DNA of 64,000 nt from Lophium mytilinum (lineage: Eukaryota > Ascomycota > Dothideomycetes > Mytilinidiales > Mytilinidiaceae): assembly GCA_010093605.1 (NCBI GenBank), contig MU004196.1, positions 1,255,454 through 1,319,453 of the forward strand, read 5' to 3'. The first letter of the stretch is position 1; each line of letters begins with the position of its first letter. Position numbers and translations under genes: made by a program. Positions 26,768-46,778 of this stretch are shown here, one piece after another. The notes below the pieces were generated by a model. That model worked only from the letters and a program-made list of their open reading frames with translations. It did not search any database and had not been told where the DNA came from.

Positions 26768-27208
26768 ATGTCCACGCAAATTCCGCAAACGACACACCTG
26801 CAATTCTCGATAGAAGCAATACTTGGTATCATCTTTGGCATTCTCACGCTCACCGCCACCGTTGCGAGCATCCGGTACAAAGATTCCATCTGCATTCTTG
26901 TGTTTCGCTTGTGTCGAAGACATCGCCGGCGGAGAGGTAGGTAGTTCAGACTCACATACAACAGCCGAAAGAAGCGCTCACCCATATTAGACATCGAAAC
27001 CACCACTACGTCCGGGACAGAGAACTCACGAACTCTGCCTATCCGTGGGCTCTTCCTGGACTGGCCGTCGCCATACGACGCGAGCCAGATGGAGATGTGG
27101 GAGTGGGAGCGAGTGAGGAGGAGCGGGGTGGGGAGGAGGACCCTGGGGTGGGGAGAGGGTGAGGGCGGGGCTGCTGCATCATGTATGGAAAATGGATCGA
27201 CGATATGA
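26768..27208 (+). CDS. Small membrane protein, array family copy A (128 aa)
   Basis: First member of an unrecognised tandem family. Exon 1 is 26768-26936; phase-1 intron 26937-26990 (GTAGGT...TTAG); exon 2 is 26991-27208. Residues ~14-35 form one membrane helix (EAILGIIFGILTLTATVASI), then RYKDSIC, a short second hydrophobic run and an Arg-rich block (CRRHRRRR). Exon 2 encodes a polar linker and the family tail motif: LFLDWP then SPYDASQMEMWEWERVRR. It lacks the two extra residues between WP and SP found in copies D-H. Positive charges after the helix predict the tail is cytosolic (positive-inside rule). No signal for a known domain. The C-terminus past the motif is Gly/Arg-rich and not conserved among copies. 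Confidence 0.7.
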
Positions 27209-28449
27209 TCTTTACGGACCGATGACCGCTGCCTGCGATGCAGGTGTTACGAAGCACAGGTCCCCGCGAGTTGCAGCCTCGTGGCTTGAGCCGAGTCGGA
27301 CCAGGCTGTAAAGGGTGGAGAGTGTCTGGGGTTGCGAGGCTGAAGGCTAACGGGGTTGACTAGCGGCTGGAATCTTGACAGCACTCGACTACTAACCTCT
27401 GGTGTGGCCAGTCGCTGTGGATCAGTCTTTATGCAGCTGCGGTATTGCGCTGCGAGTACTAGGGTGTGTGTGCATAGTGGCCGTGCGTGGTGGCGTGGGA
27501 AGCCTGAAATCTGGGGTTCATCGTCGAATCGGTTTTGGATGGGAAAACTACTGTGACAGGTCTCAGAGTTCATTGAGAGTGCCTATATCACCAGAAGTTG
27601 TGGGAGGCGATGGACGGAGAAAGCTCGGCCGATAGCTTGTGTTTGAACTAGGTGAAGCCGAGAGCTTATGGATACTTCAGATTTTAAGGTTAAGTGCTAC
27701 TCGGCCATTATGTTATGCAAGAAGGAATGCCCAAAGAATGCGCGAAGAACTCGCGGGGACTTTGAGGGCGAATAAGCTCGGCTGAATCGGAATCAGGCTG
27801 AGCCAAGGTCGGTAGCAGGCTGAAGAATAAACGCGACCACTCGCTTACCAGCTCTCCAAACAGCACGCAGCTGACGTATCACTAATCAGTGGAGGTGTAG
27901 TCAGAGGGCTGATAAATGACATATCCAGGTTTGGCCGCTTTAATGCTTCATAATGTCTATTCTTCATAAGCTTCTATCTTCACAGCCACTCTTGGAAGGG
28001 TTCCATTAAATATATGGATATAAGAACCTTGATAGACATCCGGTAGACGTATCTCGGTGTCTATGTATACTCCAGTCACCTTTCGTTTGAGACAAAGGAT
28101 CGCCATTTGCACTTGCGGATCATTTGGCGCCTGATAGCTTCCGAGGCCAATAAGATAGTTGCCAGGTACGTACTTCATCTTCGCTCATATTCTTTCTGGA
28201 TAGTCATACCGTCACTCTCGCCGGAGAAAGGGCCCTAGTCCTTGCGATACACTCACATTGGTTTCGAGACTCTTCTGATTTCCCCCTTTCCTTATTTTTC
28301 ACAACTTTGCCGATGTTTACCTTTCTAACCATGTGCTTACAAGCTTAGGTATAAAACTTATACCATTCTCGATACCAGCTAGCAGCACCTGTACCCTACT
28401 TCGAACCCATAAGCATTCAGGCCGATCCGACGTACCTCACTCGTTCATA
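27209..28449. other. Intergenic region between array copies A and B
   Basis: About 1.24 kb with no supported gene. A minus-strand frame near 27,957-28,178 (73 codons) has no recognisable feature. A TATA-like TATAAAAC lies about 100 bp before copy B. Confidence 0.35.
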
Positions 28450-28883
28450 ATGTCAGAGCCAAACTCGCAGCCACTCCATCCCCGCCTCTCCACCGAAGCA
28501 ATCCTCGGCATCATATTCGGGATACTCACGATCGTGGCCCCCGTCGCCAGTATCCGATGCAAAGATTCCATATGCGCTCGTCTCGGTCGCTTTTGTTGCC
28601 GGTCGCGTGGGCGGACGGGTACCAGTCACCTTTTTGCCAAGTCTTGGAGTCAACCGCTTACCGAGAAACGATAGCTGGTGCGTGTGATCTGGGGACTGCG
28701 ACTACTTCAGCACAGCGAGTGGCTTGTGGCGTGCCCGGTCGTAATACGCTGGAGTTGGGGTTTTGGCCTTGCCCGTTTGAAGCTTGTCAGATAGAGATGA
28801 GAGAGTGGGATCGAGCGAGGGAAAGTGGCAGTGTGGATGAGGTTAGAGGGCCGGCAAGGAGACGAAGCCAGACGATTCTTTGA
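28450..28883 (+). CDS. Small membrane protein, array family copy B (125 aa)
   Basis: Exons 28450-28618 and 28675-28883; the 56-nt intron (GTACCA...GATAG) is phase 1 at the same place as in copy A, and exon 1 has the identical length of 169 nt. The helix reads STEAILGIIFGILTIVAPVAS, then IRCKDSIC and a basic run (GRFCCRSRGRT). The tail motif is diverged but aligned: FWPCPFEACQIEMREWDRARESGS, with the usual D before W replaced by F. A TATA-like element (TATAAAAC) lies roughly 100 bp upstream of the ATG. Intact frame, so potentially expressed. Confidence 0.68.
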
Positions 28884-44324: not shown

Positions 44325-44758
44325 ATGAAACTCGATACTATCCTTGCGATAGGGTCTGGCGCTGTCACTGTTCTTCAAGTTATGGTTGCGTTGATTAGAG
44401 CTGTGGTGGTACTGGTCCGTCGGCGGAGAAGATCTGAAGGTGTGTTTGCCCTCGGGTTACTTCTAGACTTTCTTTTGCAACGCCCTCTGGTGAACGGCAG
44501 ATTCCGTCCCTAATCTTCTTCAATACTAATAGGAGATCTCTAGACCAAGAACGCAACGGCGGATCTGAGTCGGCGTCGGGCCCCTTCTCGAATCACGCGG
44601 GCACTTTATACCAGTCGTCTGGTATAGAGCTGTATCCTTTCGTACCAGCTCAACATCAATCACTGAGCGATTGGCCCGTTCTCCCATCTCCATTCGAAGA
44701 GAGTAGTCGCGAGCAGCGCGAGTGGGGCACGCTCTGTCGAGAGTGGTGCACAGCATAA
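44325..44758 (+). CDS. Small membrane protein, array family copy H (109 aa)
   Basis: Exons 44325-44439 and 44544-44758, phase-1 intron of 104 nt (GTGTGT...CTCTAG). The N-terminus is short: MKLDTILAIGSGAVTVLQVMVALI, then RAVVVLVRRRRR. The helix is diverged from the others (no IRYKDSIC block). Tail: SSGIELYPFVPAQ...LSDWPVLPSPFEESSREQREWGTLCREW. The start MK-x-DTILA and the tail R-E-Q-x-E-W link it to copy F, 6.5 kb away, not to its neighbour G, so array order does not reflect duplication order. Confidence 0.68.
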
Positions 44759-46396
44759 CGGCAACAAGGGTTGATTGAAGCTTGCTACGATTCTGATAAG
44801 CAACTTCTTGATTGAAGCTCCGGATGATAGTGTGGCACGTGGATAGCTTCAAGAAAACGGAGGACTGCAGAGAAAAGCTTTACATAGCGGGATGGTTAGA
44901 TCAGGCGAGCGGTTTCTATTGGGCGATTCCACGGTCTTTGACCCTAGCATTGGATCGACTGGTTCGAGGATGAATGTCAGCTAATACCTTTTCAAGGCGA
45001 ATTTAGACAATTAAGAAGACATGCTTGCCGAATACCTTCTAGGCTAAGAATAAATATTCAGACCAGTTTGTTTTTGTGCGAAACAGACAGCTGTCGTTTT
45101 CAGCATCATCATCGAAATCACAATTGTTCTACTTCTTGCGATCGTTTTTTTGAATTCGAAGAAGGACACTTTCCCACGTTCGCCCGAAGAATCTTGGGTA
45201 CACCGGCTACCGTAAGGTTATGACCGCGCTCGCATACTGGCGAGCGGTTTGCTGTAGGCGGCTTGTGGGAATGGAGCTCCGCAACAACCACATTCGGCCT
45301 CTCTCTGCTGAGATAGCAGAGCAGTGCTTAGGCGGAGTCTGACCTGTTGGTCTTACCTGCGTCAAACTTATGGAACACGGCATAGTAAACCAGGCGAAAT
45401 CATTAATTCTGGTAATTTAAGACGAGCAGGAGCAGGGAGCGGCGGAGCGTAGAGAAGAGCAAAATGCGGCATCTCGAAAATAACGCTTGCGAACCTTTCG
45501 GTAGATGGCACCCTGAACACTTGGGTGCGGGGCGGGTGGGATGCTACGCGACGAACACTGAGGTGTTTGGCAGCGCACCACAAGAAAGCCACGTCATAAC
45601 ATCCACCCTCAAGCCTCTAGTATGGAATGTTCGGTATACGCGAATAAATCGTAGTCAGCTGCGGACAGAATACTGAAGGCTGCGGAATCTACGGCACGTA
45701 GCTTCTTCCTTAATGCGATTCTTCGATTGGAGCCAAACTGCAGCACAGATCTCGGACGCGCGCGCAGGCGAGGGATGCCTTTGCCTGGCAGTGAGCGCGA
45801 AGTTACCCGCACCGGAGCCTAGGCATGGGCGCCAGCTGGACGGGCGAGCAGACATCACGTGCCGCGGCGGAGCGCCGGAGCGCCATGCTGAAAAAGCGGC
45901 GGGCGGGCATGACTAGACGCTAGCGACGCGCTCTCTTTTCAAGCCGTCGTGCCTGTATTGTAGGCTTGTCGCAACGACAGAGCAGCGCGCGTGCAAATAG
46001 CTGGAGTTGTGAGCGATGCGCTCTCTTTTTCCGCTGTCATACCAGCTATGCGTATCGCCGTCCTCGCGCCCAGACCGCCCTGGCGACGGGCCGGATCATG
46101 ACCTGGCTGCGTCGCCAGGTCAAATTGACTGACACTGCTGGTCAAATTGACTGACACTGCAGGTCAAATTGACTGACACTGACCATGACCGCCCTCCTCA
46201 TGTCAAGTGCAAAGCTCTTAAAGCGACCCCTTTCCGCATGGATTGGAATATGGTGTCATCCAAATTATTCATTCCACGAAGGTTCCCGTCAGTCAATATT
46301 TCCCTAGTGAGGCGTTTTCTATATACCTCGTGGCTCACTCCATTGTCTCAACGATTGAAGGAGGCTGGTAGTCCGAGAAAAACGTCAAAAGACACT
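44759..46396. other. Gene-poor stretch between array copies H and I
   Basis: About 1.6 kb, no supported gene. Contains GCGACGCGCTCTCTTTTC near 45,924 repeated diverged as GCGATGCGCTCTCTTTTT near 46,013, and the 22-bp triple repeat listed separately. Confidence 0.35.
46119..46182. repeat. 22-bp tandem repeat, three units
   Basis: GTCAAATTGACTGACACTG occurs three times at a 22-bp period (starts 46,119, 46,141 and 46,163), followed by CTG, CAG or ACC. Each unit contains the palindrome TCAAATTGA. The array sits about 215 bp upstream of copy I. Confidence 0.85.
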
Positions 46397-46778
46397 ATGG
46401 CTCGTGAAGCAGTGTTGGCGATCCTTTTTGGGGTTTTGACATTACTTGTAACCGCAGCCGGGATCAAATGCAAACACTCGATATGCTGCTGCCTGCTCGG
46501 CATGATTCGAAGAAGACGCCGGATGCAAAGTAAGTCAGCTCCTTCTTTTCTTCTTTCTTTCCCTGGCTCTTCCACACGGCATAGCAAAAACACGGGTATG
46601 CTGCGCCACACAAGGCTGACCAATCGTAGGAGGAGATGGGGACTTTGAAGGAGCCCAGCCCCCACGCACCGAGTACGTGGAGTACTTCCATCGACCTATG
46701 GCAACGTCGCCATTCGAACTCAGTCGAACGGAGCAACTGGAGTGGCAGCGGGAGAGAGATCGGGATGAGGGAGTGTGA
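46397..46778 (+). CDS. Small membrane protein, array family copy I (93 aa)
   Basis: Exons 46397-46529 and 46630-46778, phase-1 intron of 100 nt (GTAAGT...CGTAG). It starts directly at the helix: MAREAVLAILFGVLTLLVTAAGI, then KCKHSICCCLLGM and the densest basic block (RRRRR). The tail is the most diverged: YFHRPMATSPFELSRTEQLEWQRERDRDEGV. The D-W of the motif is H-R here, while P-x-x-x-S-P-[FY]-E and E-x-x-E-W-x-R-E-R are kept. This shows which positions of the motif are under least and most constraint. The frame continues upstream of 46397, so a longer N-terminus is possible. Confidence 0.66.

Follow-up and report, generated by a model that had tools for sequence, protein, structure and literature searches.

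The stretch of Lophium mytilinum DNA analysed here, 64,000 nucleotides of contig 16 (1255454-1319453; hereafter the window) in a 43.2-Mb genome of 24 contigs, carries a tandem array of small two-exon genes from a bark-dwelling fungus. Judged from the sequence, these genes form a family that is real and conserved at the protein level. The reading that we favor, at somewhat better than even confidence, is that they encode lineage-specific, N-terminally anchored membrane proteins whose cytosolic tail acts as a docking motif for partners.

A Tandem Array of Nine Copies

Nine copies on the same strand (A to I) and one relic of exon 1 lie between positions 26768 and 46778, with copy starts at 26768, 28450, 32307, 34881, 36374, 37853, 42821, 44325 and 46397 and a spacing of 1.5 to 5 kb. 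A profile built from exon 1 recovered the nine copies from the window at E values of 4e-27 to 3e-12 and the relic at 9e-6, and its three other matches did no better than E 0.32. With a tail profile, the nine copies were recovered again (E 1e-18 to 1e-4, copy E being the weakest), and no tail was found for the relic at 31147-31209. These E values are not independent, because the profiles were made from those same sequences; both were run against the window, and the flanks were covered by whole-genome searches with copies G and K and the family protein P0003. The features are as follows:

26768-27208, + strand: copy A, 128 aa (exons 26768-26936, 26991-27208)
28450-28883, + strand: copy B, 125 aa (exons 28450-28618, 28675-28883), partner of Mytilinidion P0002 (79/118 identical)
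31147-31209, + strand: relic of exon 1 (part of the membrane helix), exon-1 profile E 9e-6
32307-32765, + strand: copy C, 135 aa (exons 32307-32457, 32509-32765), public BU16DRAFT_144852
34881-35299, + strand: copy D, 118 aa (exons 34881-35046, 35109-35299)
36374-36766, + strand: copy E, pseudogene, interrupted by a TAG where the tail W would be (36652-36654) and by a frame switch
37853-38406, + strand: copy F, 107 aa (exons 37853-37985, 38216-38406), public BU16DRAFT_566069
42821-43211, + strand: copy G, 111 aa (exons 42821-42983, 43039-43211), boundary tentative
44325-44758, + strand: copy H, 109 aa (exons 44325-44439, 44544-44758)
46397-46778, + strand: copy I, 93 aa (exons 46397-46529, 46630-46778), public BU16DRAFT_566073

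An earlier note, which had described the array from its letters alone as nine same-strand copies and a relic over 20 kb, is confirmed in this by the two profiles, and its predicted sizes of 93-135 aa agree with the intact spliced models. However, only eight of the nine copies are intact. Copy E is broken in exon 2, whose frames give ELQRSHSTLLD* in one case and VPSPNIVGETERMAWADEG in another; its Mytilinidion relative, P0005, is intact.

Gene Plan and Introns

In each model, exon 1 encodes the membrane helix and an Arg-rich end and is followed by a phase-1 intron of 51-230 bases, while exon 2, which in many cases begins with a motif resembling D-[LIVMF]-E, contains the tail. The intron lengths leave a remainder on division by three of 0 in A and C, 1 in G and I, and 2 in B, D, F and H. 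Left unspliced, the frame meets a stop before the intron ends in six of the eight intact copies, and in G and I it is shifted instead. Copies C, F and I are the firm cases for the phase-1 intron, as their models were fixed before the public proteins came up and match these letter for letter. Donor quality is mixed, ranging from good in I (GTAAGT) to weak in B (GTACCA) and G (GTCAGC), and the exon boundary of G is tentative because of its weak donor. In the eight intact copies, sites matching a branch pattern lie 14 to 42 bases upstream of the acceptor chosen, but the pattern is loose enough to arise by chance.

The initial intron scans kept or printed phase 1 alone. A scan unrestricted in phase, covering ten intact copies (including J and K, two copies found outside the array) and any GT...[CT]AG that framed the tail, gave 66 phase-1, 13 phase-0 and 15 phase-2 options. 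Thus, the uniform phase-1 intron of the earlier note is borne out by the public models of C, F and I, but phase-0 and phase-2 options exist, and phase 1 is favored across the copies rather than forced in each. The public annotation is mixed: C, F and I agree with it, while the public model at the K locus (BU16DRAFT_91099, P0008; contig 13 near 955 kb) runs through the K intron and misses the K tail. That misreading indicates that annotation can go wrong for small genes with this two-exon plan. In the spliced form given here, A, B, D, G and H were absent from the results of the three public protein searches. The idea, taken from reading, of a shared intron in the 5' untranslated region was dropped because the 700-base upstream regions of the nine copies gave no blastn match to one another at E 0.05.

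Relatives Outside the Array

The whole-genome searches with G, K and P0003 revealed two extra copies:

Contig 7, near 1917.6-1918.0 kb: copy J, with an intron at the equivalent place, readable in phase 1
Contig 13, near 954.9-955.4 kb: copy K, with an intron at the equivalent place, readable in phase 1

Query K also gave a single weak match on contig 2 (E 0.55). Beyond Lophium, the public protein searches returned three proteins of Mytilinidion resinicola and one protein from a 1008-base contig. Remote relatives could be missed, because these searches require shared 5-letter words; indeed, a run with 14 sequences missed three proteins that an earlier run had returned.

A tree was built from 15 sequences, with 107 of 164 columns retained and copy E represented by exon 1 only; in it, three Lophium copies pair with Mytilinidion proteins. 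The supports, given as Shimodaira-Hasegawa-like approximate likelihood ratio test/ultrafast bootstrap (SH-aLRT/UFBoot), are 92.8/95 for B with P0002, 91.7/85 for E with P0005 and 86.8/91 for K with P0006; K is identical to P0006 at 76 of 104 positions. Since B, E and K pair in this way, the family is probably older than the split between the two genera. The contig that carries P0002 equals in length the one that carries P0005, and P0006 is on another; this is compatible with conservation of the array, K being separate.

Conservation of Anchor and Tail

Across ten models, identity at codon positions 1/2/3 is 0.56/0.72/0.33 in the anchor and 0.66/0.67/0.42 in the tail, compared with 0.40/0.49/0.29 in the linker. 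The codon comparison shows that the anchor and the tail are kept at the protein level, and more so than the linker. The same contrast is seen between K and P0006, which share 24 of 25 anchor residues, 21 of 22 tail residues and 21 of 41 linker residues. The earlier note had also proposed comparing nonsynonymous (dN) and synonymous (dS) change among the copies. By the Nei-Gojobori method (NG86), applied to 12 chosen pairs of 45 in three blocks, one of which ("all") contains the other two, dN is below dS in all 18 estimates with a defined dS, of 36 made. The description of the locus as fast-evolving therefore holds for the linkers, which diverge, but not for the anchor and tail, which are conserved, or for the three pairs that reach another genus.

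The tail motif reads W-P...S-P-[YF]-[DE]...E-W and is present across the family, though with variation. The residues that separate W-P from S-P are missing in A, B and C; copy I carries R instead of the first W, and copy J carries A instead of the E ahead of the final W. A P-x-Y lies ahead of L-[DE]-W in F, J, K and P0006.

Topology, Predicted Shape and the Favored Reading

Consistent with the single membrane helix first proposed, all ten intact models have one N-terminal hydropathy peak (Kyte-Doolittle, KD19, 2.06-2.55), the second-best value being at most 0.61. The 25 residues after this peak carry a charge of +2 to +8, again in all ten. The positive-inside rule places the Arg block and tail on the cytosolic side, and together with this charge suggests that the tail faces the cytosol. 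An AlphaFold2 model of copy F, made with seven public relatives, predicts helices at 2-24, 28-40, 81-85 and 92-106, and its linker (47-71) has a predicted local distance difference test score (pLDDT) under 50, which is very low confidence. At low confidence, the model adds another short helix to the anchor, leaves the linker disordered and begins the final helix at S-P; the S-P-[YF]-[DE] that opens this helix looks to us like a helix-capping motif.

The absence of a named family, also claimed at the outset, was upheld. Pfam searches with 14 members gave no convincing match (best E 0.053; five families matched at E 1), neither did the sequences of solved structures in the PDB (best chain E 0.71), and the public protein searches likewise offered no family name. 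Literature searches in a library with few subscription papers, judged by the titles and abstract openings listed, showed nothing on this family. As far as these searches go, the family appears to be undescribed.

In the reading that we favor, the N-terminal hydrophobic stretch would anchor each protein in a membrane with the Arg block and tail in the cytosol, an orientation like that of type III proteins or of mitochondrial signal-anchored ones. The tail would dock one shared or several related cytosolic partners and so bring them to a membrane, and the copies would differ mainly in the linker. The array would have grown through old tandem duplications with occasional loss, as in E and the relic.

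Several observations weigh against this reading or against parts of it. The AlphaFold2 model is weak (mean pLDDT 61.7, predicted template modeling score 0.23, seven sequences), and an amphipathic tail helix is unsupported, as in all 14 members at least 6% of shuffles of the member's own letters score as high. The full tail motif is not kept in A, B, C, I and J. The contrast between parts is small for B and P0002 (anchor 27/31, tail 15/21, linker 15/25), half of the dS values are undefined, and the closest ratio comes from a tail, that of B and G (dN 0.52 versus dS 0.57). In addition, UFBoot is below 95 for two of the three cross-genus pairs.

Genomic Setting and Alternative Explanations

The HET genes described in this setting are present: two genes with confirmed HET domains (46974-48830 and 51541-53253) lie directly downstream of the array, and an additional HET match (C16:1250947-1251312) precedes the window by about 4 kb and copy A by about 31 kb. 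Between F and G, the gene at 39390-41863, which had been called NLR-like, instead has a DnaJ_C domain (E 2e-6; 28.1 bits, the cut-off being 26.6) and a further DnaJ_C piece that stays below threshold (20.2 bits, E 7e-4). Its reading frame is interrupted, and no NLR domain (NACHT, NB-ARC) was found by Pfam in the seven pieces scanned. Its first part may resemble fungal STAND N-terminal domains.

This setting raises the possibility of a self/non-self or cell-death system, shared with the neighboring HET genes and the DnaJ_C gene, in which the family proteins would be sensed or would act on membranes once triggered. The two HET genes downstream, the HET match before the window and the tandem copies showing losses speak for such a role, which we consider unlikely. 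HET genes are common in this genome, with at least 152 matches (274 first-look candidates, 150 scored), and 0.07-0.13 would be expected within 10 kb up- or downstream of any given position in the 43.2 Mb (the range runs from the 152 matches to all 274 candidates). Two HET genes within about 7 kb are thus not striking, and their nearness is weak evidence. J and K have no HET gene within 100 kb among the matches listed, and the genes beside them are ordinary (Ins_P5_2-kin, MFS, RTA1, Peptidase_S10 and VWA; 7 of 26 listed open reading frames scanned). Moreover, the protein-level conservation of anchor and tail argues against this role, and no HET, NACHT or NB-ARC domain was found in the proteins themselves (Pfam at E 1, 14 members). 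The link to self/non-self loci suggested by the earlier note is therefore weak. A related and similarly doubtful extension of the docking idea is that the lineage has evolved its own membrane tethers, with the tail as a new docking code by which copies with differing linkers recruit a shared cytosolic machine, the HET or DnaJ_C neighbors perhaps being that machine or its guard.

The degraded flank had also been correctly recognized: at 56-64 kb, marks of repeat-induced point mutation (RIP) are evident (TA/AT 1.84-1.87, substrate index 0.09-0.14). The AT-rich stretch spans 55001-64000, with a GC content of 0.26-0.32 per kb. The family copies have TA/AT below 1, with E (0.96/1.0) and H (0.91/0.98) closest to the RIP pattern. 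Between B and C lies a fragment of an MFS transporter (30450-30749, + strand; PF07690, E 9e-10), apparently a relic. Tandem repeats lie between or beside the genes at 33900-34044 (54 bases, 2.7 copies) and 46116-46181 (22 bases, 3 copies), and a further one is found at 25553-25758 (103 bases, 2 copies).

The family proteins could also be autophagy receptors that combine a membrane anchor with an Atg8-binding W-x-x-[LIV] motif (Atg8-interacting motif/LC3-interacting region, AIM/LIR). L, I or V occupies the +3 position of 15 of the 34 second-exon W residues of the 14 members, against a background of 0.153, and 11 members have at least one such core, though the 15 cores are not independent because the members are related. 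We find this quite improbable: the motif is absent from B, I and P0003, and 13 of the 15 cores have P, G or R between or beside the key residues, which a review of LIRs names as usually inhibitory (PMC7615515). Furthermore, the last W falls inside the predicted helix 92-106, whereas the typical LIR is a strand (PMC7615515).

A role as adaptors of the Rsp5/Nedd4 ubiquitin ligases, or as other membrane sorting factors, read through the proline-aromatic tail, is very unlikely; the proteins do combine a single membrane pass with S-P-[YF], to which four of them add the P-x-Y noted above, but none of the 14 members contains [LP]-P-x-Y. Least plausibly of all, the genes would be selfish killer or toxin-like elements that spread as arrays of short membrane proteins; a pseudogene and a relic among small membrane proteins in one array would fit this, but the cross-genus pairs, the protein-level conservation and the lone copies J and K speak against it.

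Significance and Comparison with Known Systems

These genes show that an orphan family of small proteins, some of them overlooked or misread in public gene predictions, can be old, conserved at the protein level and common to two genera, and the conserved tail offers a short, testable bait for a partner. Should that partner prove to be a neighboring HET or DnaJ_C product, fungal recognition would gain a new route; otherwise, the family would be a lineage-specific membrane adaptor.

Like Atg8 receptors, the family has a membrane anchor and W-x-x-[LIV] in most members, but its core residues are mostly of a sort that tends to be inhibitory in LIRs, and three members have no such motif. The best Pfam match, to CYYR1 (PF10873), covers the membrane helix together with the Cys and the basic residues behind it; at 14.4 bits for G and 12.1 bits for A versus a cut-off of 31 (best E 0.053), it was rejected as sub-threshold and probably reflects composition. 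In being small and single-pass and in having a basic stretch next to the membrane, the family resembles RCR and other fungal Rsp5 adaptors, but none of the Pfam families matched by the 14 members at E 1 is RCR, and the [LP]PxY is missing. Signal-anchored proteins of the mitochondrial outer membrane carry a positive flank after the helix. They have one N-terminal membrane segment, most of the protein being in the cytosol (PMC9355564). The present family differs from them in showing neither a sequence likeness to them nor a predicted folded receptor domain, but it shares their plan of an N-terminal helix followed by net positive charge in all ten intact models.

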